Shown piece after piece: positions 12 to 59,600 of a stretch of DNA of 64,000 nt; within the stretch, counting starts at the first letter, position 1; each line of letters starts with the position of its first letter. A program made the position numbers and the translations under genes. Below the pieces are notes generated by a model, which had not been told where the DNA came from, made no database searches, and saw only the letters and a list, made by a program, of their open reading frames with translations. This DNA comes from Asterias amurensis (taxonomy: Eukaryota; Echinodermata; Asteroidea; Forcipulatida; Asteriidae), in the NCBI RefSeq assembly GCF_032118995.1, contig NC_092648.1:3239001-3303000 (forward strand), given 5' to 3'.

Positions 12-23210
<23,199 letters not shown>

Positions 23211-23243
23211 CTTGGATGCGGGAAGAACTTAGAGATGGTAGAT
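23211..23243 (-). other. KLC: KLC 5'UTR part of the first coding exon
   Basis: On the minus strand a pyrimidine-rich tract ends in CAACAG at 23244-23249, then 33 nt of leader, then the ATG. The acceptor implies at least one further upstream non-coding exon. Confidence 0.65.
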
Positions 23244-33266: not shown

Positions 33267-33539
33267 TTATCCAGATCTGAAGAGGAGAATCGCAATTTGA
33301 TCGAGGTAAAAGTAGATGAAATGCTTAGTCTCATGCGTGACGTAACTTCCGAAGTTTCTTCCCACAATGCAGTGCCAGGTCGGGTTATACTTCCGGTCAA
33401 ACTCCTTCTTGACGTAAGCTGCGATGTCTTTCTCGATGCTGAACTTCTCTATGCCCGTTCTAGCGCTGTAGATAGCGTCTTGTTGCATGTTGTCTGACAT
33501 GTCGGCATTCTTAACCAAGGCTTTCTTATGATCAGTCAT
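33267..33539 (-). CDS. DYNLL: Dynein light chain LC8-type (DYNLL family), 90 aa
   Basis: LC8 is a homodimeric hub and a light chain of cytoplasmic and axonemal dynein and myosin V. It binds short linear motifs in a groove formed by beta-strand exchange. The ORF is complete and uninterrupted. Residues 50-80 carry the family core ([20 protein letters not shown], then [16 protein letters not shown]) and the protein ends ILLFRSG. Human DYNLL1 has 89 residues. The N-terminal third is more divergent than LC8 proteins usually are: [15 protein letters not shown] where most have a sequence close to VECATQALEKYNIEK. YLDQ replaces the usual YLGQ. This suggests a second, faster-evolving paralogue. Upstream on the same strand a long pyrimidine tract ends in GCCCAGCAG, so the 5'UTR continues to an acceptor at 33560. 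A 5'UTR intron argues against a processed pseudogene. Confidence 0.94.
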
Positions 33540-34074
33540 GATTGTGAGATTGGTGAAGACTGCTGGGCGAAAGAAGGAAAAAGAAAGAAAAAAACACCCA
33601 TGTGAAGTGATGGTGACAGGCCTATCCCCATTGGCATGGCACACCTCTTGTAGTAGGGCCTAGGCCTAATGATTAAACACCGTTTTGTTTTGTCTTAGGT
33701 TATAGCACGACTAGAGTTTCATCATAGAAAGGGCAAGGCCATTCTATTGCAAAGGGCATGATCATTTGGAAAATCTTAAAGTCAACTGGAAACTTTCGAA
33801 GGGCACAAGGTCACAGGGACAACGGAGGCCGGCCATGGCTGATCCATGACCTGCGAGTAACTCCCCGTCCTGCTCAGTGCTCATACAGATAAGCAAAACT
33901 GTCCTGTTGACAACTCTGTCCAAGAACTTTCGACATCATTATGGGACGATCTTTTCCCCTATTGTTTTATTTTGTGTAAGCCAAATTTATTGAAACGTTC
34001 AATTGATACAGTTGAAACGATGGTTGCTGATTTTAACTGTTTTGTATGTCTAAACGTCCGATTTACAAACTCAC

Positions 34075-35318: not shown

Positions 35319-35945
35319 AATTGTGTATGGTTGTGTAGTTTACCATTGACTTGTGTATGGTTGTGTAGTTTCCCATTGACTTGTGTATGGTTGTGTAGTT
35401 TCCAATTGACTTGTGTATGGTTGTGTAGTTTCCCATTGACTTGTGTATGGTTGTGTAGTTTCCCATTGACTTGTGTATGGTTGTGTAGTTTCCCATTGAC
35501 TTGTGTATGGTTGTGTAGTTTCCCATTGACTTGTGTATGGTTGTGTAGTTTCCCATTGACTTGTGTATGGTTGTGTAGTTTCCAATTGACTTGTGTATGG
35601 TTGTGTAGTTTCCCATTGACTTGTGTATGGTTGTGTAGTTTCCCATTGACTTGTGTATGGTTGTGTAGTTTCCCATTGACTTGTGTATGGTTGTGTAGTT
35701 TCCCATTGACTTGTGTATGGTTGTGTAGTTTCCCATTGACTTGTGTATGGTTGTGTAGTTTCCCATTGACTTGTGTGTGGTTGTGTAGTTTCCCATTGAC
35801 TTGTGTATTGCTGTGAAGTGTCCCATTGACTTGTGTATGGTTGTGTAGTTTCCCATTGACTTGTGTATGGTTGTACAGTTTCCCATTGACTGGTGTATGG
35901 TTGTGTAGTTTCCCATTGACTTGTGTATGGTTGTGTAGTTTCCAA
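35319..35945. repeat. 30-bp minisatellite array 1 (about 21 units)
   Basis: Unit TTGACTTGTGTATGGTTGTG + TAGTTTCCCA, 30 bp, with a few single-base variants. Because 30 is a multiple of 3, long stop-free frames run through it on both strands; these are not genes. Confidence 0.95.
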
Positions 35946-36451
35946 TGGGAGACTTTTTGAAAGCTCTGCCACTAGAGGGCAGCAGACCTACCAGGTAAGG
36001 GTGCACAACTCCTATAGCAAACAATGGTAAATGCTAAAAATTCAAAAATACTCAAAAAATATTTAGAAGTCTCTCAGCCCCTTGAAAATTAAATCAGATA
36101 CATTGTCATACAACTAAACTTCAGATTTCTCCTCAATTTTTGGTAGGTCAGCATTTTGGAATTTTTGCTAATTACCCTAAAAGAAACACTCCCAAAAACT
36201 CATGCACACCGTTCGTTATCATTGGGGAACTCGTGTCCAGTACGTCCTGTTCCAGAACAGTTTGGTTTATGCTGGCAATGTGTTATGAAAAACAAAATAC
36301 AGTTTGGCTAAATCTAAAATACAAAATCAAAAACACGCAAAACACAAGGTATTTGCTGTCAGTGACCGTCACTCATGCTTCTCCTATTCCTTAGTTGTTG
36401 ACATTACCTGGTGAAGAGCGCCCTCTCTTGGTGATTGGCACATAGTATAAA
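35946..36451. other. Unique spacer between minisatellite arrays
   Basis: Its ends are weakly inverted (CACTAGAGGGCAGCAGACCT..ACCAGGTAA near 35970 and TTACCTGGTGAAGAGCGCCC near 36405). No coding exon recognised. Confidence 0.4.
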
Positions 36452-38415
36452 GTTTCCCATTGACTTGTGTATGGTTGTGTAGTTTCCCATTGACTTGTGT
36501 ATGGTTGTGTAGTTTCCCATTGACTTGTGTATAGTTGTGTAGTTTACCATTGACTTGTGTATGGTTGTGTAGTTTCCCATTGACTTGTGTATGGTTGTGT
36601 AGTTTCCCATTGACTTGTGTATGGTTGTGTAGTTTCCCATTGACTTGTGTATGGTTGTGTATATTCCCATTGACTTGTGTATGGTTGTGAAGTGTCCCAT
36701 TGACTTGTGTATGGTTGTGTAGTTTCCCATTGACTTGTGTATGGTTGTGTAGTTTCCCATTGAGTGGTGTATGGTTGTGTCAATTCCCATTGACTTGTGT
36801 ATGGTTGTGAAGTGTCCCATTGACTTGTGTATGGTTGTGTAGTTTCCCGTTGACTTGTGTATGGTTGTGTAGTTTTCCATTGGCATGTGTATGGTTGTGT
36901 AGTTTTCCATTGGCATGTGTATGGTTGTTTAGTTTCCCAATGACTTGTGTATGGTTGTGTAGTTTCCCATTGACTTGTGTATGGTTGTGTAGTTTCCCAT
37001 TGACTTGTGTATGGTTTTGTAGTTTCCCATTGACTTGTGTATGGTTGTGTAGTTTCCCATTGACTTGTGTGTGGTTGTGTAATTTCCCATTGACTTGTGT
37101 ATGGTTGTGTAGTTTCCCATTGACTTGTGTATGGTTGTGTAGTTTCCCATTGACTTGTGTATGGTTGTGTAGTTTCCCATTGACTTGTGTATGGTTGTGT
37201 AGTTTTCCATTGGCATGTGTATGGTTGTTTAGTTTCCCCATGACTTGTGTATGGTTGTGTAGTTTCCCATTGACTTGTGTATGGTTGTGTAGTTTCCCAT
37301 TGACTTGTGTATGGTTTTGTAGTTTCCCATTGACTTGTGTATGGTTGTGTAGTTTCCGATTGACTTGTGTATGGTTGTGTAGTTTCCGATTGACTTGTGT
37401 ATGGTTGTGTAGTTTCCCATTGACTTGTGTATGGTTGCGTAGTTTCCCATTGACTTGTGTATGGTTGTGTAGTTTCCCATTGACTTGTGTATGGTTGTGT
37501 AGTTTCCCATTGACTTGTGTATGGTTGTGTATATTCCCATTGACTTGTGTATGGTTGTGAAGTGTCCCATTGACTTGTGTATGGTTGTGTAGTTTCCCAT
37601 TGACTTGTGTATGGTTGTGTAGTTTCCCATTGAGTGGTGTATGGTTGTGTCAATTCCCATTGACTTGTGTATGGTTGTGAAGTGTCCCATTGACTTGTGT
37701 ATGGTTGTGTAGTTTCCCGTTGACTTGTGTATGGTTGTGTAGTTTTCCATTGGCATGTGTATGGTTGTGTAGTTTTCCATTGGCATGTGTATGGTTGTTT
37801 AGTTTCCCAATGACTTGTGTATGGTTGTGTAGTTTCCCATTGACTTGTGTATGGTTGTGTAGTTTCCCATTGACTTGTGTATGGTTTTGTAGTTTCCCAT
37901 TGACTTGTGTATGGTTGTGTAGTTTCCCATTGACTTGTGTGTGGTTGTGTAATTTCCCATTGACTTGTGTATGGTTGTGTAGTTTCCCATTGACTTGTGT
38001 ATGGTTGTGTAGTTTCCCATTGACTTGTGTATGGTTGTGTAGTTTCCCATTGACTTGTGTATGGTTGTGTAGTTTTCCATTGGCATGTGTATGGTTGTTT
38101 AGTTTCCCCATGACTTGTGTATGGTTGTGTAGTTTCCCATTGACTTGTGTATGGTTGTGTAGTTTCCCATTGACTTGTGTATGGTTTTGTAGTTTCCCAT
38201 TGACTTGTGTATGGTTGTGTAGTTTCCGATTGACTTGTGTATGGTTGTGTAGTTTCCGATTGACTTGTGTATGGTTGTGTAGTTTCCCATTGACTTGTGT
38301 ATGGTTGCGTAGTTTCCCATTGACTTGTGTATGGTTGTGTAGTTTCCCATTGACTTGTGTATGGTTGTGTAGTTTCCCATTGACTTGTGTATGGTTGTGT
38401 AGTTTCCTATTGACT
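36452..38415. repeat. 30-bp minisatellite array 2 (about 65 units) with 870-bp higher-order repeat
   Basis: Same unit and orientation as array 1. The ordered series of variant units at about 36661-37520 recurs 870 bp (29 units) later: ATATTCCCAT at 36661 and 37531, GAGTGGTG near 36763 and 37633, and paired TTTTCCATTGGCATG variants. This is a higher-order duplication inside the array. Confidence 0.95.
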
Positions 38416-38417
38416 TT

Positions 38418-38707
38418 TTTAGTTTGGAAGGAAATAATCTGACACAATCGTACCTCCACATTAACCATCAACATATTCTGTGTACCTCATGTTAGTTTTA
38501 ATTACTATGTAGAGGTTTTTGATGCATTCTGGAACACTTTTTTGTCCAAAATTAAATTTCTATTTTTTTTTATTAAAAAAAAAAAAAGAAAAAGGGCGGC
38601 GAATTCGAAAAGCCTTCTAAAACTGGCAATGTTTTTTTTCGGGGGGAGGGGGGAGGTTGAGCTTTGAAAAATCTCACGCATAGCTGGCCTCTGGACTTGG
38701 CATCTCT
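38418..38707. repeat. Right flanking repeat of the minisatellite block
   Basis: Direct repeat of 35035-35314 with scattered differences and length changes in the A and G runs. It begins at once where the last minisatellite unit is broken (TTGACTTTTTTAGTTTGG). Confidence 0.7.
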
Positions 38708-39365
38708 GATTATTGATCCATAGTTTTATGCCTGGCGTTACAAAATACACAATAGGTCTAGCTACTATTTTTGCCGACAGTCTCAGTACAACATCCTTAC
38801 ACATTTCGGCGAACTGAATAACGTATGCCTAATGTAGTTGCCTAAAACTAGCAGAAGGCGCACCGGGAAGAATTGTTTTGTGAAACCGTATTTACTTCAA
38901 AGAACAAAGACCGAAAATGTATATATTTTATTTCAGAACGTATTCGATAGTTTCATTCCTATGAATTGCATTGAAGTCATTATATTTTGATATACACATA
39001 ATAAAAGAGCAGACTTTAGAATCGGGTTGGCGTGATGAAGTTTCAACATGAAACAATCCTTGCGGTTACTTTAAATGGGTGCTAGGATATGCACGATCCG
39101 ATTTTCTTTGGGAACAAAACACATTTTTTAACGAATTTTGTTTTTCTCAGAATGATTATTACAGATGAAGCTGGCTGCATGGCCACAAACTGGCCCTTGA
39201 AAAACTCGCACCCCATGACCCCTAAATCGGACATCACAATGCGAACCAACCTAGCAGTATCTAGCCGAAGAGGGCGCTGTGTAAATTCTCCAAAGAAAAC
39301 ACTCGTGTTGCTCTTCGGAAGACTTCCCAAACAAACTTGTCGTCCTTCTCGGGTCATTAAAAAGT
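38708..39365 (+). promoter_or_regulatory. Upstream region of the mitoregulin-like ORF
   Basis: No repeats or coding exons recognised. It is the probable promoter and 5'UTR of the downstream transcript by position only; no clear TATA box was identified. Confidence 0.3.
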
Positions 39366-39536
39366 ATGGCAGAAATCTCTGGAAAAGTCTTGGCAATATC
39401 TTTAACCGTTAGCTTTATGATCGGAACAGTAGTGGGCTATAGGTGCAATACGATATACAGGCAGTATCTACAGAACAAACGAGATCGTCTCAGGAGGAAA
39501 GCTGTCGAGATACAGACGAAATTGAATGTGTCGTAA
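39366..39536 (+). CDS. MTLN: Mitoregulin-like micropeptide, 56 aa
   Basis: A single-exon ORF of 56 codons. It begins MAEISGKVLAIS and ends VEIQTKLNVS. Compared from memory with human mitoregulin (56 aa), it aligns end to end without gaps, with about 19 identities. These include the MA..S start, F17, G20, G24, N28, R32, YL at 34-35, RL at 41-42, K45 and the Q.KL near the C-terminus. Layout is the same: a hydrophobic helix at about residues 8-25, then a basic amphipathic tail (RDRLRRK). Vertebrate mitoregulin sits in the inner mitochondrial membrane, binds cardiolipin and the trifunctional protein, and supports fatty-acid oxidation and respiratory complexes. The ATG has A at -3 and G at +4. A consensus donor GTAAGT begins at 39555, 18 nt after the stop. 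The call rests on similarity over a short protein; the gapless equal-length match makes chance unlikely. Confidence 0.8.
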   Translation: MAEISGKVLAISLTVSFMIGTVVGYRCNTIYRQYLQNKRDRLRRKAVEIQTKLNVS

Positions 39537-39554
39537 GATAAGAAAGTGCAAAAT

Positions 39555-40486
39555 GTAAGTCTGCTGTTTTGTTTACTTATTTGATGATTCATGTGTGCGT
39601 ACGGAGGAAGAGAAGGAGGACATTGTGTGCGTCTCCCCCTCTAGTCCTCCTAGAACTATGATGAGGTTTCATATAGTAGCGGGATGAACCTCAAACTCAG
39701 TTCAGTCAAACGTTCAAGATATTAAAATTTGTAAACAAAACCAATTCAACTGTGAGATTATTGAACTTACTTGTCAATCTGTCAATCTCTATGATCAACC
39801 GCGCTGCCCTATTGAATGATCAAATTAAGATCAGTTGGTCGCGTAGCAATCGGTCGACGCAATGACATCTTTGGGCAAACCGATTGCGCTACGAGTTTGT
39901 TCCCCGTTATCAGCGTATCGCGCAGGAAAGGCTTTGCGCGATCTACCAATCGTGCAGGAATGGGTTTGCGCGATCGACCGATAGTGCAGGAAAGGTTTTG
40001 CCCGATCAACCGATTGTGCAGGAAAAGTTTTGCGCGATCTACCGATCGTGTAGGAATGGGTTTGCGCTATCGGCCGATTGTGCAGGAATGGTTTCGCGCG
40101 TTCGACCGATCGTGCAGGTAAACTATTCCTTGGGGCGATTTCTCAAAGCAATAAAATTCATAGCAGGACAAATTTTCATTATCACCATAGTGATTTATAT
40201 AGTGACGTCACACATCAACCGATTGCGCAGATTGACCGATCGCGCCCAACAAAATACACACAAGACCTACTCCTTGCTATAATAATACTAGAAAAAAACT
40301 AGTAAAACTTAAAAAGCTCTCACTGGGTGGGAGCAATATAGTTTTAAGAAGTACAGAAGACCCGTACAAAGTTTCACTTCATGCTAAATGTCGACACAGC
40401 CAGAAGGCCTTAAGTGTTTTTTTTTAATAAATATTTAAAATGTGGTAGATTCAATAGCTTTTCCATAAATGTTTATGTTTATTCAG
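39555..40486 (+). other. Candidate intron joining mitoregulin-like ORF to ASRGL1
   Basis: Begins GTAAGT and ends with TTTATGTTTATTCAG, consensus donor and acceptor. It holds the 32-bp tandem repeat and AATAAA at 40150-40155, which could instead end a separate short mRNA. No other exon is recognised inside. Confidence 0.5.
39905..40125. repeat. 32-bp GC-rich tandem repeat (about 6-7 copies)
   Basis: Unit GCGCGATCGACCGATCGTGC + AGGAATGGGTTT, with 10-20% divergence between copies. Flanking remnants (CAACCGATTGCGCAG at about 40217) suggest a once longer array. Confidence 0.8.
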
Positions 40487-40498
40487 AATCCAGCAGGA

Positions 40499-43400
40499 AT
40501 GTCTTTCAATGAGGTTAATGGCGTGGGTGTGAATCCAGTCGTCTTGGTACATGGGGGTGCATGGGCGATACCTGATGATCTAGTTGAGGATAGTAAAGCA
40601 GGGGTGCAGAATGCAGCAAGGGCTGGGTACAGAACCCTGGAGGAGGCAGGAGGGACTGCCTTAGATGCTGTAGTGGCTGCAGTGTGTGTCTTAGAAGATG
40701 ATCCAGCATTTGATGCGGGTAAGCTTTAGCAGGGATAGAGGAATCTTGGAGAACCTGTCATTGGGCTTATAAACTTTAAAGGAACACGTTACCTTCGATC
40801 AGACGAGTTGGACTATAAAAAGAGCTTGTAACTGTTTTTTTTTTAAATGCATCATGGATAAAAAGATGTTTAAAAAGTAGAATACAATGATCCACACAAA
40901 TTTATATATAGATATAATAGTAGGGAGTTGCACATTTATTTTTTTCTAGATGAGGTTATTTTTAAAATAATTGTTGTTCTTACTTTGTAGGTACGGGTTC
41001 GGTGCTGAATGAAGAGGGTGAGGTGGAAATGGACTCTGTTGTCATGGAAGGACGGGAGCTGAAAGCAGGGTCCATCGCTTGCGTCAAAAACATTAAAAAT
41101 CCTGTTAAACTGGCAAGACTAGTCTTGGAAAAGGTTTGTTGGCCTTGTGTTAATTTGTTTTTTAGGGTTATGCATGTATACATTTGTTTTCTAAATGGTT
41201 AAACATAACTTGTGACTTTCGGTTCTAGTGAATTCTAATTCAAATTGAAAATGACTGATGCAGGGTTTCTAAGTTAACTGGTGTGGCAGGAGATAGACTT
41301 GATACAAGTCCCATTCTCATGTGAGAGGTAGTTAAACATATTACCCCAACTTACTATAAAACAACACATTGGGTGCTTACGGTCAAAATGTCCCGAGAAT
41401 GGGGAACAGGTTTTGGAATGCAGAGCATCACAAACTGTAGTTTCCTTGGGATGGCACGGGATTGGGACTTTGAGTCAAGTCTACTGTTGTGTGTACTTAT
41501 CCACACAATGCAAAGCTTCAAACATTTCATTTAATTTTTTTCATTTCATTTATTCCAAGAACCCAATAGAGAAAAGACAAGAAAGGAAGTTTCAGTTTTA
41601 CATGTGGGAGGAAAACCTCAGATAATTATTCCAGAGAACACCCACACAGTCAGGTAGGGACTGAAAACCCAGTCCACATAGTGCCCCGTTGTGATTTGAA
41701 CCAGGGTTTTAGAGGTGGAAGGCGAGGAGAGATGCACCTACACCAACCCGACCACTCAGTGCAAGATTGTTTTGCTTGATTATAACGAATGAACTAAAAA
41801 ATTGCCTTTGTTTCTACAGACAGATCACACTATGCTTGTCGGCGAGGGAGCCAATAAGTTCGCAAAAGCCATGGGGATGGATGAGGTACCGATGTCTACT
41901 CTTATAAACGCCAAGGCCATGGAAGATTTCCAGAACTTTAAAAAATTTAGAAAGGTTGTGGATCATTGTTTTCACTCGAGGTACGTTTAGGAGATTCGTC
42001 TTTATTTCTTAGTTAATTATATGTTAGAAAATACGTAACTTCATCGCCTTCCACCTCGAGAAACCTGAATCAAATCACACTTGGGCACGATTGGGTTTTC
42101 AGTCCCTACTACCTACCTGATTGCAGGGGTTTTCTCTCGAATATTTATCTGGGGTTTTCCTCAAAGATCTAAAATTGAAACTTCATTCCTTGTCATATCT
42201 CTATTGGGTTCATTATCGCCGTTTTGTAATTTTGAAAATGTGGCCCCAACAGGAAACTCCACGATGCAGTAGCTGAGTTTATTTGCTCTTCAAATAGATA
42301 AGAAGAAGAGCTTTAAAATAACACTTGATTAAGAAGTATTTCTCAACAATTACAATGTTCAAGACAACACATTACATTGATATCATGGCTGATGTTTAGG
42401 TGTCTTTGCTATTCACTAGTTCTGAGAAGTGCCATTTTTTTGGCCACGGAACATTCTACAATTGTTGCATGCTGTGACAGGGTCCATGTTGTTTTGTACA
42501 TCCGAGGGGAAAATGGCACCTGAGGCAAAGCGGAGGGTACCATTTGCCCCCAAGGGTGTACCAGTTTACAAAGCTCATGTTACCCTCCGCGCTGTGCAGC
42601 AATGGAACATGCATCTTTGTATCACATCACGTGATTGGTTCTGGATCAATAAAACTTCACAATTTGTTACCGAGGTATAACAACACAAAATGATGTGCTC
42701 TCTCAGAAGTGTGCCAAAAGGTCTAACAATGTAATGTTTGAAATAACAGTGTTTGCAAGAAGCGCTGACTCCTAGCAATTTCACCGGCTACTTGTCCTTT
42801 GTCGCGAGTGATTTTTTGAACTTTACAATTTTTTTATCCTGGCTGAAGGGTTGTTCATGATTGAATTTTGATTCTTGTGTATTTTCAGATCTCAAGGCCA
42901 CGACACAGTGGGTGCCGTAGCCGTTGACAGACACGGTAATGTAGCATGTGCCACATCTACTGGAGGAATCTCAGCTAAAATGGTTGGCAGAGTCGGTGAC
43001 AGTCCCATCATTGGTAAGGGCGCTGGAAATGTACTCTGTTTTTAAAAGAAAAACTTTGCCCCAAAATTTACAATTAGTGTTGACCATGTGCCCTTTGTGG
43101 GCATGATATGATTTGGTCAGTCCTTGGGAAATAAGTAGGAATATTTTATTGAGAACTGCAAGGGCCAATCTACATGTACATGGTGTAGGCTTTAAAATTC
43201 ACTTTTTATGCTATTGAATTATAATTTGTCTGATTTTCCCCAATGTCTAAGTATTGGAAATAAGACTAAAGTAGAAAGAATATCATACCTGTACTTTACA
43301 TCTGAACAGCCTTGTACTAAAATCTACCTGCCAGTGTGCAAACACATTGTGTTTTGCATAAATTTATGCAAAACATGATAGCACTTGCTCACTCATACGC

Positions 43401-44897
43401 CTCTCTTAATATTCATGCATGACGTCATAATTCTTACCCAAAAAGAGGTTATAGGGGCCTGTCCGCCACCACTTGCAGTTGCTGCGCCTAAAGCCTGGTT
43501 TTGGGTTAGAATTGTGATGTACTCTATGCATAAATATTAAAAGAGGTGTATATTCCCTGAATTGTCTCATTAAAATGTGCAATATGGCCAAATTCAATTC
43601 ACATATCTAAACCCAAACCCTGCAGGTTGATACAATGTCAAGATCTTTGTTTCTAATCTTAAAGGAAGTGGTGCATACTGTGATAATGCGTCAGGAGCAG
43701 CCTCCACCACAGGTCATGGAGAGTCCATCGTTAAAGTCACATTGGCAAGGCAGGTTCTGTACAACATGCAAAATGGTACGTAGCTGAAGTTTATCTTAAA
43801 GGTAGAGTCACAGATTTGTAAAACATCCAAAATTGGATGGACATAAAAACTTACTTGATGAAAAGCACTGCAGCTGTTGAAAGTATAAACAAATTTTGAG
43901 AAAGATTAATTCCCTTTCGAAGTAATATGGTTTGGATAGTTTTTCACCCCAAAGCATTTGAGTCTGAGAAATGATTCATGCATGAATTGTGTCTCAGTTT
44001 TGTGAGGGTTGGCTTTGATTTGTGAATGCAGTTGGTAACGGCTGTCAACTCGCTAGAAGTGGATGGATTCAACGTTCTTGTGAAAATACCATGGCAGGTT
44101 TTGCTATCTTCTCAGGAATAGACATGGTATTAATCTGGAAGTTTCACATGTGAATTTTATTGTACTTTTCTTGATAATTTTGCCTATAAATCAACATTTT
44201 TTCTTGAGGGTTATATTTTCCGTCGGCTTCATGGATAATAATATTTAAAATTGATGGGTCACTTCTGGAGTCATAGTTTTAAAGGCAGTGGACACTATTG
44301 GTAATTACTCAAACTAATTATTGGCATAAAACCTTTCTTGGTGGCAAGTAATGGGGAGAGGTTGATGGTATAAAACATTGTGAGAAATGGCTCCCTCTGA
44401 AGTGCCATAGTTTTCGAGAAAGAAGTAATTTTCCACGAATTTGATTTCGAGACCTCAAGTTTAGAACTTGAGGTCTCAAAATCAACCATCTAAACGCACA
44501 CAACAAATTATCTCACAACTCCGACGACCAATTGAGCTCAAATTTTCACAGGTTTGTTATTTTATGCATATGTTGAGATACAACAACTGTGAAGGCTAGT
44601 CTTTGACAATTATCAATAGTGTCCACTGCCTTTAATAATAACACTCAAGGCCGTCAACATTTGTATATTATATTATAACATTTTCTCCCACTAGGTGACA
44701 ACGCCCAGCAAGCTGCGGAAAGAGCCATCTCATACATGTCAAGCAGGGTGCACGGCTCAGGGGGAACCATTGCAGTGAGCAAAACGGGTGACATCGGGAT
44801 AAGCTTTAGTACAGAGCGTATGGCCTGGGCTTGGGCTAAGAGTGGTTCCATGCATTTCGGTATAAATCCAGGTGAAGATTTCACTGTAATCAGTTAA
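40499..44897 (+). CDS. ASRGL1: Isoaspartyl peptidase/L-asparaginase (six exons)
   Basis: N-terminal-nucleophile hydrolase that cleaves L-asparagine and isoaspartyl dipeptides after autocleavage into alpha and beta chains. Coding exons: 40499-40718 (exon opens at acceptor 40487), 40991-41133, 41820-41980, 42889-43013, 43665-43775, 44695-44897. Phases join to 320 aa; human ASRGL1 has 308. Landmarks: [14 protein letters not shown] at residues 11-24, [23 protein letters not shown], then [21 protein letters not shown]. Thr181 is the predicted nucleophile, released by cleavage after Asp180. [17 protein letters not shown] and [12 protein letters not shown] form the rest of the active site. Asp before the Thr resembles glycosylasparaginase; human ASRGL1 has Gly. 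No targeting signal is seen at this ATG. The ATG is 12 nt from the acceptor, so the transcript must have an upstream exon; the nearest plausible donor is the one just after the mitoregulin-like ORF. Confidence 0.95.
40780..40915. mobile_element. Family D MITE, half copy
   Basis: TTTAAAGGAACACGTTACCTTCGATC ... GTAGAATACAATGATCCACA matches the left arm of 12409-12800. In ASRGL1 intron 1. Confidence 0.6.
42460..42605. repeat. Inverted repeat related to 18430-18650
   Basis: GTTGCATGCTGTGACAGGGT..CATGTTGTTTTGTACATCC at the left and CTCCGCGCTGTGCAGCAATG at the right, with GGCACC..GAGGC/GGTACCATTTGCCCC in the centre. In ASRGL1 intron 3. Confidence 0.45.
44279..44635. mobile_element. Family A MITE, full length
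   Basis: TTAAAGGCAGTGGACACTAT ... ATAGTGTCCACTGCCTTTAA, 60 bp upstream of the last ASRGL1 exon. A short deletion lies after CACACAACA. Confidence 0.7.
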
Positions 44898-45171: not shown

Positions 45172-45521
45172 AATTATTAATAATAACAAATTCTTATGTA
45201 GCGCATTTGGCTTTAAACAGTATCAATGCGCTTTACATTAGTGCCCTGGTCATTAGGCCAATAACATCCCTTTTAATGTTTCTCAGCTCCCTTGGGAGTA
45301 TACAACCTGGGCAACAGTTTATATTGCTCCAAAGGCTTTTTCATTCACAATATCAACCTCTACCCTCACAGGTACCCATTTATACCCTGGGTGAAGAGAA
45401 GCAATATCAAGTATCTCGCTCAAAGATACAAGTGTCACAACCGGGATTCGAACCCACACTCCAGTGACTTAACCACCAGAACTTGAATTCGATGCTCTTA
45501 ACCGTCCGGCCATGACACTGT
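45172..45521 (-). mobile_element. tRNA-derived SINE, near full length
   Basis: Minus strand starts GTGTCATGGCCGGACGGTTA with B box GGTTCGAATCC, and ends at TAATGTAAAGCGCATTGATA plus an AT-rich tail, like 17816-18165. Confidence 0.7.
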
Positions 45522-46341: not shown

Positions 46342-48586
46342 CTAGTACTGTGTAATTAGCAGTCCACGGTATCCCTTGAGTTGCAAAGCATTTAATGGTA
46401 TTGAATCTCTAAATTTAAGGCCTATTGGTTTTGGACGTCGCTGAATCAGCACAGGGCCACCCAGTCCATTTTGCTGGGAATGCTTGAGGGATTTTTGAGC
46501 AGTAGATTGTGCTGGCTTAGAGCCCAGTTGGTCACTGAGAGTTGATTCGTTGACCCAAGAGCTGAGCCGCTGATTCGACTGCAGCAAGCTTCCAATAGGC
46601 AGCAATGACGGTGTTTGAGGTCGATTGAGTCTCCCACATCCCTTGCACTGCAAGGCATTCAGTGGTATCGAATCTCTAAATGTTAGTCCAATCGGTTTTG
46701 GTTGCTTCTGAATAAATACAGGACTTCCATGTAAGTTGGTCTGTGTAGATTGCTTTGGCGAAACCGATCCAGTTGGTTTTAGAGCGCCTTCTTTCTGATT
46801 TGGTGCATGCCTTCTTGGTGGGCTGCACTGTGGAGACTGCTTAGGGTGTCCACTACCTAAAGATCTGTATCTAGCTGGTTGATGGGGCTTCTGAATAAAC
46901 ACAGGACTTCCATGTAAGTTGGTCTGTGAAGATTGCTTTGGCGAAACCGACCCAGTTGGTTTTGGAAGGCCTTCTTTCTGATTTGGTGCATGCCTTCTTG
47001 GCGGGGTGCATTGTGATGACTGCTTAGGGTGACCAGTTCCTAAAGATCTAGATGTAACAGGTTGATGAGGGCTCTGCAAAGGAGACCCTCCGGACACCTT
47101 GAGCTGTGAAGATGGCTGCAACTGAGACGATCTTCCAGGACTGATGATGCTGGAAGGCTGCTGTGGAATAGACTGGACAGGTTCATTGGATGCTGCTGAA
47201 AACTGCTGAGTTGGCAGTGATCTTCCAGATGCACACTGCACAAACTTATGCTGTTTCTTGGCATGTGCCTTTCTGGGGGAAGTTTCTCTTGAGTTGTCAT
47301 TGCTTGGCAGTTGGTTTGACTTGTAGATATCCAATGTTTGAGAAACTGGAAAAAAAAAATTCAAGAGTTCTTATAATGCATAATTTTAATGTTTAGGCCA
47401 AGGTACACATTTTTTGAGGCAACTTGGAGACAACCAACTGCACTGCATGCACAAGGACACTTTGGCAGCATGAGATACTCACTATTCTCAACAAAATATT
47501 GAGAAACTTAAATGTGGATGAGTTTTCTTATTGGAGATAGCCTGGAACAAGTTGCCTGTAATTTACTTAGTGTGATATGGCCTTCCGATTCTGCATTCCT
47601 AATGCCACAGATAATTTAGAAAGTTGATAGTTAGTTTGCTCTTTAAATATCTCAAAGAAGAACTGGTTGGACAAAAATTGAAGCAAAGCAAAACTAGATA
47701 CTTTTATAACTAGAGACTTTTATAACTAGAGACAAAACATTAAAAGCTCATCATACCTTGTGTAGTTTGTGACTGGATGACAGGTGGAAAACAATTTAGA
47801 GGATCAATCCATCTTTCAAAACTAGATTCTGCTCGTCGGTCAGGTGAACTTCTACTTCTAGTAGAGGGAGTTAAATACATGTTATGCTGTGTTAGTTACT
47901 GGACACAATTAAAGGCATCATTTAAAATGAAATGCAAAGGTATATTTTTGTATTTTTTGTTGTTGTGGTAAATATGATTAAAAAGAACAAACAAAACGTG
48001 TGATTAATACTTATTTTTAGAAACTTAAGGGCCCACGGGGAGCCTTTTAGTTTTAGTTTATATGAATTTACAGAAATATATAATACCTGGCAATCCTGGG
48101 GTGGTCTTGACGTCCAGTTTGCTTGGTTTGGAAGCTACTACATGGCGATTGGCTTGCCGGTCTTATCCAGTAAATAAACCCAAATAGGATTGCTGTGCAA
48201 AGGCACAAACCTGCCGAAATGAGGATGGTATTTTGGACATCATAACGCATCCAATGGAAGCCGCGGCTCTCTTTGATGTCTGTACCGGAGATTGTGCCTT
48301 GCTTGAAGAATACTATTTTAGGGTCTTCCAAGGATGATAGTGAGTTATACATATTGACTGAAGACAGTTCTTGGGTGTGGCATGCCTTATCAACCACAAA
48401 CTCGTTGGTGCTGTTGATGAACAAGACACTGTTGGGTGTCGACTGCTGCCAAGACGTGGAAGTTTCCCACACATCGGGCGAAGCAGCTGAAACGTTCCCA
48501 AACACCTCGCAACCGCTGGTCGGGCACACTAGGCCAAGGCTTACGCCGGTGACCAACAAGTTGATGAACTTCAAGGCAGAAGGCAT
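46342..48586 (-). CDS. Unrecognised single-pass membrane protein with repetitive tail, 534 aa
   Basis: Three exons join in phase: 48087-48586, 47757-47857, 46342-47345. I do not recognise the family. Residues 1-25 look like a signal peptide (FINLLVTGVSLGLVCPTSGC). An extracellular part of about 90 residues has possible N-glycosylation sites NVS (31) and NST (58) and few cysteines. A transmembrane helix spans about residues 120-141 (ILISAGLCLCTAILFGFIYW). The cytoplasmic tail of about 390 residues is rich in S, P, Q and K. It starts with RSRSSPDRRAESSFERW and WIDPLNCFPP, then carries two long near-copies of a unit containing HPKQS.QC.PPRRHAPNQKEG and SVSPKQS.QTNLHGSPVFIQK. The motif PKPIGL.FRDSIPLNALQ.KG occurs twice, the second time at the very C-terminus, suggesting a short binding motif. 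Topology and function are inference; the exon structure is well supported. Confidence 0.78.
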
Positions 48587-52488: not shown

Positions 52489-52876
52489 TTAAAGGCAGTG
52501 GACACTGTTGATAATTGTCAAAGACGAGCCTTCACAGTAAGTGTATCTCAACATATGCATAAAATAACAAACCTGTGAAAATTTGACCCCAATCGGTCAT
52601 CAAACTTGCAAGATAATAATAAAAAAAAAAAGCACCCCTGCCACACGAAGTGGTGTGCGCTTAGATGGTTGATTTCGAGACCTCAACTTCTAAATCTGAG
52701 GTCCCGAAATCAAATTCGTGGAAAACTACTTCTTTCTCGAAAACTATGGTACTTGAGAGGGAGCCGTTTCTCACAGTGTTTTAATACCATCAAACTCTCC
52801 CCACTACTCATCACCAAGAAAGGTTTTGTGCTAATATCTAGTTTGTGTAATTACCAATAGTGTCCACTGCCTTTAA
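52489..52876. mobile_element. Family A MITE, full length, inverted
   Basis: TTAAAGGCAGTGGACACTGT ... ATAGTGTCCACTGCCTTTAA. Confidence 0.7.
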
Positions 52877-53629
52877 AGACTGCTATGCTTATTGAAAACA
52901 AGAGGATGTGAAATATTTCACTCTCTACCCACCCCCTTCTCCCCCCCCCCCCCAACAAACAAACGCAATGTCAATAATGTATACTCTTTGAAAAATAGCA
53001 CTAAGGTACATTGTATGTTAAATATTTCAATATAGCTTTTCTAAAAACCCTTAACTTTTCTAAAACCCTGGGAGACCTGGGAGAATCCTGACTCTATGTT
53101 CGTAACATTGACAATAACACAGCGTGAATCATATCCGGTAATTATCCCGATCCTATCAGTGTATAGTACACTGTGTTTAGTCGAACATGTACATGAACCC
53201 GCTGGCACTCTACATCCAGGGAACTATTTATTTAAAACTTTGATGAACACTTTTAAAGTTATTTTGTTGTTGTATATTAACCTACAGCACCAATCATTAG
53301 AATGACACACCCACCATGCCCAGCCACTTGAATCCATTCAACTGCACATCTTGTTTGGAGGTACAGTTGTGTGCAGTTGTGTTCTTTTTACATACACAGT
53401 GTACATGTTACCAGGGAAAAAAATATTTAAACTTGTTTTGTGCACACTGATGGCTAGTACTGGATTTTGTTAGAGTGAGGAAGGAACTCTTCTTTACTCT
53501 AACAAGAAGTGGCCATGACACGAATCCCCACTCACTGTGAACGAAGATGTTGTGGAAGTTTCAGCTTCATTAGTTGTCAAGTTTTGAGAGTCGCGTAAAT
53601 GCAGTGTACATTTGCTAAAATAATTCATT

Positions 53630-56662: not shown

Positions 56663-59600
56663 ATGAGTGACAGTCATCGTCTGCGTCCAAAACTGCCGAT
56701 GGGAGAGGTGGAGCACGCTAACATTCTGTCCCAGGATATTGGGAACCTGTTTGCCAATGAAGACTACAGCGATGTGACGCTGGTGGTCGAGGACAAATAC
56801 TTCCATGCCCATCGGGTCATCCTGGCAGCAAGATGCCAGTATTTTAGGTGAGTAGAAATTGGGTGGGACTCAAACCGATGACTGTTGCATGGATTGACAT
56901 GCTAGAGCAGATGTCTTACCACTAGACTACCAAGCTAGCCTGGTGGCTAGAGGCAGTTCGAATTATTTTTGTTAGCAGCGGGTACTGCAACCATCCTGTT
57001 TAACTAGCCTTTTGGCCAGTGGACTACTGTTAGGGGGCGAACGCTGGATTGGAATAAATAGGTTAATCCCGCCTTACCCCTTCAAAGTTTGATAAATGCT
57101 GTGCTTAATTCCACCCATTGTCTTTACAGGGCTTTACTTTTTGGTGGAATGAAAGAGTCCGCCCCAGGTTGCAATGAAATCGAACTCCAAGACACAACGG
57201 CGCAGGCCTTCGAGGCTCTTCTGAAGTACATCTACACGGGCAGGATCAACCTCCTGGACCTCAAAGAAGACGTCCTCCTAGACGTACTGGGCCTAGCCCA
57301 CCAGTACGGCTTTGTGGATCTAGAGGGATCCATCTCGGACTACCTGAGAGCCATCTTGAGCATCCACAACGTTTGTCTGATTTACGACGTGGCGAGTTTG
57401 TACACGTTGGACGCGCTGAAGGAGACGTGCTACCACTTCATTGAAGCCAACGCTGGGGACGTTATGAACAGTGAATCTTTCCTCTCATTGTCCGAGGTAC
57501 TGGAAATAATTTATTGGACTTCACAAAACAATTACCATGTTCAGTGGTTTGTGGCAGGTTGTTGTCGAGCGGTGCAGCAGTTTTCACAAAACGCTAGGAT
57601 TCATCTTATCTCGAGTTAGGATGAGTAACTCGTCCTAACTTAGGATGGGTTCAATGCTCCCTAATGCTTATATGGATACGGAACTTAACTCCTCCTAAGT
57701 CCTAAGATTAATCCTTAGTGAGGAAGATTTTGATAAAATCAAAGGCAGGGCATCAGACTTAAGTTCTGGGCCGAATTTCATGAGTTGCTTTTAAGCATTA
57801 ATGTAGCTAAGCACAACAAAATTATGCTTACTGGATAAAGACACCTAGTCACTTGCCCCATTTTTTAACTGTTATCCTGCTCATTTCTGCTTTGCAGAAA
57901 ATTGTTAAGCATTTGTTTTCTTCTGAATCATTAGAGTTAGGGGTTTGATTCCGGCTCATAACACCTACCTTGACGAGGCACTTAACCATAAATGCTTCTC
58001 TTAACCTAGGTGTATAAATTGGAACCTAAGAGGGCAGAAATGGTATCGTGATGGGTTAAGCCCTTAAATTGGACACTAGTCTAAAACTGTTAAATCCTCA
58101 AATACATTGTTCTGGTGTTTACGTTTTCTCTTTTCATCATGAATCTTTCTCTTATAATTATTTTGCTAGAGCGCTTTAAAAGAAGTTATCACCAGGGACT
58201 CCTTCTACGCTTCTGAAATTGCAATCTTCAAAGCGGTTCAAGCCTGGACTCGTGCTAACAAAGACAGTAACTTCAGTGAGATCGCCAAGGCTATCCGGCT
58301 TCCCCTGATGACAATGAAGGAGCTGCTGAATGTGGTCCGACCAACAAAACTGCTTAGCGCTGACGACATCTTGGATGCAATAAAGATCAAGCAGGAAAGC
58401 CGGAATGTGGACCTTAATTTCCGAGGAGCTTTAGGTAAGCTGACTGCAGAGGGTTGCGACAAAAATAAATTCCTCAGCCTTGCTGCATCCTTTGGTTGGC
58501 GCGGTTGGCTTGTGCGTAAAGCGTTGCCTCTCACCAAGGTGACCCCGGTTTGTTTCCCGGCTAGGACCAGGGCCATAAGTGAGTTGAGTTGTGCGTTAGT
58601 TCTCTGCTGTGCCTCGAGGGTTTTTCAAAGCATCCGGTTTTCCTCCCTCCAGGAAAAATCAAACACTTTCGATCTTGGCTGTGCCCTGTGGTCATAATGG
58701 GTTGATGTGGCTGGCAGCCAGAGGCACCCTTGCATGCCTGCTTCTCGAACACGTTGTAGTCGCGTCCTTCGCAATTCAGCTCTTAGCTGCGAGTAAGGAT
58801 GATTAGCCCCCCAAATCATTATTATTATCCTATAAAAATGCTAACTCGACTATTCCAGACTTCGAGACAGGTACAAATTTGGCAATATTTTACACCCGTT
58901 TATTGTTTTACTGTTTCGTTCTTTATTTGTACGATTTATGATATGCTGTTTTCAAAGAATTCCCAGGGGTATAAATGGGCACCTGCGAGGGTTGATGTTG
59001 ACAAAGATTTCATGGTTGTTATTGGCTCAATGACCTGCAGCTGATTTCATGAAACGCTAGGATTAATTGTATCTCGAGTTAGGACGAGTAACTCGTCCTA
59101 ACTTAGGACTAATCTTAAGGTTTGCATGCTACAGTGCAGGGCTGGGACTCGTCCTAAGTCCTTTAGATTAACCCTAAGTTAGGAAGAGTTTGGTGAAATC
59201 GACGGCAGGGCACTAATGTAAAGTGCATTGATACATTGCACTATATAAGAACTAGGTGTTATTATTAAGGTTTGTATCAGACCCAACAAGTGTGGTTCAA
59301 CAATGTTATAATAAAGAGAAGAACACTCGCAGGTTATTTTGCAAGACTTTTGCAGTCTGTTTCCACATTGTCTGTTGTCCTGATCCACATTATCCTAGTC
59401 ACTGTTGTACGTTCAATCTCCATAGGACAATGGTGGGACTGGCAACCAGTCTATCAAACTAAGTGTGCATGCTGTGTTAAAGTGTTCATTATGATGGCTT
59501 TGGATAGTTTTGTGAAACTTTGCTCAATGTCTTTTTGTGGTTTTCTAATGAAACATTTAATGCTTTTTTGAAACATTTCCTGCCACTTGACTGCTGTTGT

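Follow-up and report, generated by a model that had tools for sequence, protein, structure and literature searches.

Mitoregulin (MTLN, LINC00116; also SMIM37) is a tiny mitochondrial protein that has been regarded as restricted to backboned animals. It has been described as carrying an N-terminal hydrophobic segment and a positively charged C-terminus (PMC11920140). The mammalian gene has NPHP1 and ZC3H8 as neighbours: LINC00116 is placed near NPHP1 in one report (PMC6458154), and ZC3H8, MTLN, and NPHP1 are tabulated together in buffalo in another (PMC10725422). Human bicistronic transcripts with a small ORF before a larger conserved ORF include STREMI-SLC35A4, MIURF-MIEF1, ASDURF-ASNSD1, and PYURF-PIGY; where the upstream microprotein is conserved, they demonstrate that an mRNA of this kind can be productive, and the small product of STREMI is mitochondrial (PMC13303939). 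The main text of that paper mentions LINC00116 twice and ASRGL1, MTLN, or NPHP1 not once. A narrow literature search on ASRGL1 and bicistronic transcripts returned other subjects, and the titles returned by one on polycistronic transcripts in echinoderms and sea urchins did not point to a pair of this kind. Either the pair itself or a mitoregulin from an invertebrate may nevertheless have been published.

Here we describe a mitoregulin ORF placed before a larger conserved ORF in the sea star Asterias amurensis. The window, that is, the whole stretch of 64,000 nt that was analyzed, corresponds to C1:3239001-3303000 in a genome of 491.5 Mb and 23 contigs. In it, the mitoregulin ORF lies directly 5' of ASRGL1 on the + strand, with the anatomy that an earlier note on this DNA had described. 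The human set was chosen on long-read and ribosome-footprint evidence; the sea-star pair fits it in the geometry of the sequence. We consider it an almost evenly balanced proposition that mitoregulin and ASRGL1 form one transcription unit in which some transcripts would be spliced at 39554^40487; two tightly packed genes are about as likely. The wider reading is more tentative: mitoregulin may predate the vertebrates and may be, in sea stars, the leading cistron on an mRNA that it shares with ASRGL1, both proteins being produced from one promoter, while in mammals it sits beside NPHP1.

The firmest new fact, as read from the genome, is that a full-length mitoregulin exists in an echinoderm. 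The ORF (39366..39536, + strand, 56 aa, ending in the TAA at 39534-39536) matched PF22002 with an E of 3.8e-13 and 49.5 bits, against a curated cut-off of 27, over residues 1-55 of 56. This upholds the mitoregulin-like identity that had been proposed for the micropeptide, and a match of that extent implies that the peptide itself is conserved. The human protein scored 106.8 bits against the same family. Like the sea-star form, vertebrate mitoregulin has 56 aa and aligns without gaps; identity to the human sequence was 34%, and the highest among the named vertebrate entries was 41%. The described layout was present too: the best 19-residue hydropathy was 1.67, from residue 6, and residues 25-56 had a net charge of +7.

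A protein search with the sea-star sequence alone gave a single candidate and match, a 56-aa relative (P0001) that was 80% identical. Searching with an alignment of the sea-star sequence, P0001, and human mitoregulin gave 94 proteins from 97 candidates; names were available for 78 of the 94, and every organism among them was a vertebrate as far as the truncated names show. The search requires shared five-residue words, so invertebrate mitoregulins could be missed. One relative, the Callorhinchus milii entry P0166, is a 56-aa mitoregulin named 'Nephrocystin-1-like protein', a name that may reflect a joint mitoregulin-NPHP1 transcript. Among solved structures, 13 chains were returned at E up to 10; the best (0.015) were complement regulators over about 17 residues, which we took as chance. 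In the 491-Mb genome the ORF was the sole match at E 0.001, and neither a second mitoregulin nor a junction-bearing retrocopy was found at that threshold; scans of viral contigs turned up neither relatives nor DNA of the junction. If it was not gained by transfer, an echinoderm mitoregulin would place the origin of the protein no later than the deuterostome ancestor, and the sea star would offer a mitoregulin system with one gene copy.

The ASRGL1 gene was modeled with six exons on the + strand: exon 1, the first coding one (40487..40718, ATG at 40499), exon 2 (40991..41133), exon 3 (41820..41980, also backed by a protein match), exon 4 (42889..43013), exon 5 (43665..43775), and exon 6 (44695..44897, to the stop). 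The introns measure 272, 686, 908, 651, and 919 nt. Exons 1 and 2 matched PF01112. The model equals the deposited A. amurensis isoform X2 (isoaspartyl peptidase/L-asparaginase-like), which starts in exon 1, except for the last six residues; these (THLYPG) end the coding part of an alternative last exon at 45372..45394, joined from 44871 (donor 44872). The enzyme gene model is therefore sound, and the ASRGL1 identity given in the earlier note holds. The presence of this alternative exon also suggests that the deposited record is probably RNA-driven. By alignment, exon 4 holds the Thr that opens the beta chain: residue 181 falls opposite the first beta-chain residue in solved structures, and T181 was invariant in 14 aligned rows drawn from 120 listed relatives plus the model. 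The whole protein could be aligned with animal ASRGL1, with 74% identity to a Patiria and an Acanthaster protein. No difference from the animal enzyme was seen; only the upstream neighbour differs.

Splice sites were scored with a matrix of generic vertebrate frequencies, checked on just the five donors and five acceptors of ASRGL1. The GTAAGT donor proposed for the junction is where it had been reported, 18 nt past the mitoregulin stop (39555..39560, + strand). Its score of 3.69 ranked 50th among 4130 GT sites on the + strand, and it outscored three of the five donors fixed for ASRGL1 and fell below the other two. Among 232 ORFs (ATG-started, at least 40 aa, both strands, minisatellite excluded), two, the mitoregulin ORF being one of them, had a donor of at least this strength no more than 18 nt from the stop. 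This counts in favor of a shared mRNA and indicates that the donor at 39555 probably works.

The candidate acceptor at 40486/40487 (TTTATTCAG followed by AATCC) was likewise present as described, 12 nt before the ATG at 40499. It is modest, with a score of 2.2 and rank 167 of 3499 AG sites. Of the five acceptors fixed for ASRGL1, one was weaker and the other four were stronger, each by more than 1 bit. Joined, the two ORFs are 30 nt apart and in the same frame, with one TAA and ten sense codons between them (...NVS TAA GAT AAG AAA GTG CAA AAT^AAT CCA GCA GGA ATG), just as had been claimed. We agree that a shared frame has a one-in-three chance and is unremarkable, as are ten codons without a second stop, for which simple arithmetic gives a chance of about 0.6. 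The size of the gap between the ORF and exon 1 (39555-40486, 932 nt) is near that of the larger ASRGL1 introns, which again favors a shared mRNA.

It had also been argued, from the acceptor so close to the ATG, that ASRGL1 needs an upstream exon. The need itself is inferential, since the unspliced sequence offers two in-frame ATGs before 40499, at 40469 and 40475; an exon starting upstream and read straight through is thus compatible with the sequence. The deposited protein begins at 40499 and not at 40469, which mildly favors splicing at 40487 and, with it, the shared mRNA.

Other sites in the gap point to a different arrangement. Four acceptor-like sites lie between the donor and exon 1, at 39645 (4.31), 39654 (4.88), 39914 (4.26), and 40118 (2.52), listed at or above the weakest fixed ASRGL1 acceptor. 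All four exceed the score of 40487 and are nearer to the donor, which counts against the putative junction. With the acceptors 39645, 39654, and 39914 and an AATAAA at 40150, a mitoregulin-only 3' exon may be drawn at 39645..40170 (+ strand), its end being put about 15 nt past the AATAAA by rule of thumb. A donor-like CAG^GTAAAC (40118..40123, + strand, score 3.59) could close an independent ASRGL1 5' exon; it was the only other donor scoring at least 3 across 39250-40480, while the remaining gap donors, at 39593, 39752, and 40327, were weaker (0.97-1.44). Given the donor at 40118 and the AATAAA at 40150, two separate genes could fit here, and both sites weigh against a shared mRNA.

Under such an arrangement, the mitoregulin donor would splice to a short 3' UTR exon ending near 40150, and ASRGL1 would have its own promoter in the gap, its 5' end being either an exon that stops at 40117 or unspliced sequence running through 40487. 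We consider this slightly short of an even proposition. The acceptor-like scores of 4.31, 4.88, and 4.26 against 2.2 at 40487 suit it well, yet all the ends must fit into 932 nt, of which 206 are a CpG-rich tandem array with a 32-bp unit (39917..40122, + strand), and the smallest intron it implies would measure only 90 nt, compared with at least 272 nt for those of ASRGL1. AATAAA occurred twice in the gap with 0.64 expected, which is not clearly above chance, and poly(A) signals were thus set aside as proof of separate ends.

Base composition bears on both arrangements. In invertebrates, methylated gene bodies lose CpG and promoters retain it. The observed/expected CpG ratio was 1.09 at 38801-39290, 1.10 at 39291-39554, 1.07 in the part of the gap before the array, 1.7 within the array itself, and 0.82 in the part after it; it was 0.30 in ASRGL1 exon 1 (4 CpG against an expected 13.2; uncorrected Poisson P 0.003) and 0.31-0.70 beyond. 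The probable first coding exon of a kinesin light chain-like gene was CpG-poor alike (6 seen, 17.8 expected; 0.34), and three other coding-start stretches, chosen by eye, had 11/15.9, 7/6.8, and 14/12.9 seen/expected (0.69, 1.03, and 1.09). The profile mildly favors a transcription start upstream of exon 1, though not specifically at mitoregulin. It supports a shared mRNA to that extent, and an exon 1 that is already depleted argues against two genes; a start of ASRGL1 at 40.1-40.4 kb would fit the profile equally. In 200-nt windows the gap was uneven (0.51 at 39601-39800, 1.56 and 1.59 in the array, 1.0 at 40201-40400), which counts against a shared mRNA.

A paralogue provides a further comparison. 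The genome search with ASRGL1 gave 12 exon-sized matches in three places on C1. At C1:28.23 Mb, the ATG of the paralogue lies 53 nt past an AG acceptor-like site (score 1.59), although the genome search returned no second mitoregulin. A 5'-leader intron therefore need not depend on mitoregulin, and having one does not establish that mitoregulin provides the leader. The first coding exon of the paralogue is also CpG-poor (4 seen, 10.9 expected), which makes first-exon depletion independent of mitoregulin. That the ATG of the paralogue likewise follows such a site without mitoregulin agrees with two neighbouring genes and tells against a shared mRNA. A further match, L013 (C1:24918696-24918800, minus strand), is a single-exon ASRGL1-like match of 63% over query residues 180-214 and is possibly a third family member.

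The earlier claim that one mRNA may encode both proteins therefore stands in part. One transcription unit is plausible and the donor is very likely real; the junction is a prediction, and the rival acceptor-like sites and donor in the gap, together with a paralogue leader that lacks mitoregulin, detract from it. On the shared-mRNA reading, the mitoregulin promoter would start one unit spanning both genes, and a subset of transcripts, spliced at 39554^40487, would carry the 56-codon mitoregulin ORF, the TAA, 30 nt, and ASRGL1. This joint mRNA may occur alongside mitoregulin transcripts with a 3' end of their own and an independent start of ASRGL1. Were the junction real, the animal mRNAs that code for a mitochondrial microprotein together with an unrelated protein would gain an invertebrate member.

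The two-ORF mRNA would yield mainly mitoregulin, because the ATG context of mitoregulin is stronger than that of ASRGL1: positions -3 and +4 are A and G in the former (AAGTATGG) and G and T in the latter. ASRGL1 would depend on reinitiating or leaking ribosomes. Upstream ATGs are few, a point in favor of a shared mRNA: the stretch from 39242 to 39365, before mitoregulin, is ATG-free, and the joined mRNA would contain two other ATGs before that of ASRGL1, both with T at -3. A strong start, a first ORF of 56 codons, and a step of 30 nt would pass on few ribosomes, and a first stop 5' of several junctions should invite NMD. The poor translation of ASRGL1 and the NMD thus expected count against a shared mRNA, as does the lack of out-of-frame ATG depletion, a mark of leaky scanning, in the mitoregulin ORF (1 seen, 1.26 expected).

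Were the two ORFs joined, mitoregulin would precede the enzyme ORF and could serve chiefly as a uORF that represses ASRGL1 or makes it respond to stress. The human STREMI-SLC35A4 uORF is described as both encoding a protein and regulating the next ORF (PMC13303939). We judge such a main role in the sea star improbable: the full-length family match means that the peptide itself is conserved, and the joined mRNA depends on a putative junction.

The same frame, the single stop, and the ten open codons had led to the proposal that read-through could add a membrane anchor to ASRGL1. TAA followed by G is among the tightest stop contexts. The mitoregulin stop reads TAA GAT, which is not a leaky context, and the frame match itself has the one-in-three chance given above. 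A fusion made by a stop-skipping splice would need the donor-like GTAAGA that overlaps the TAA (39533..39538, + strand), but this site is weak (matrix score -0.31) and, by hand count, would put mitoregulin out of register with ASRGL1. None of 120 ASRGL1 relatives (0/120, among the matches listed, of 3395) carried the mitoregulin domain PF22002, a result limited by the fact that annotation pipelines would seldom record read-through. We rejected both forms of the fusion on these grounds; a membrane-anchored enzyme of this kind is highly improbable, and the claim is unsupported.

Several other elements surround the pair. A minisatellite with a 30-bp unit and about 103 copies occupies 35321-38416, just 5' of mitoregulin, and its periodicity alone yields long open frames on both strands. 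An Rfam search of 38400-41200 gave nothing at gathering thresholds. A dynein light chain type 1 gene (33289-33540, - strand; PF01221, 134.3 bits) lies about 6 kb upstream of mitoregulin. Exons with TPR and coiled-coil regions occur at 4423-23228 on the - strand, one of them matching TPR families; they look like a kinesin light chain (KLC) gene, with a possible 5' exon, seen by eye, near 30.56 kb.

Downstream, open frames at 46345-48586 (- strand) may encode a membrane segment and contain a repetitive stretch rich in Pro, Ser, and Gln; they run head-on to ASRGL1, about 1 kb past the last exon of isoform X2, and two pieces searched gave no Pfam match at E 0.1. An interspersed repeat with inverted ends (AAAGGCAGTGGACACTATTGGTAATT...) was seen by eye at 44283-44640, in ASRGL1 intron 5, and downstream at 52490-52880; the same repeat occurs near the ASRGL1 paralogue (L014, about 540-910). 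Exons encoding BTB and BACK domains were found at 57062-58694 on the + strand.
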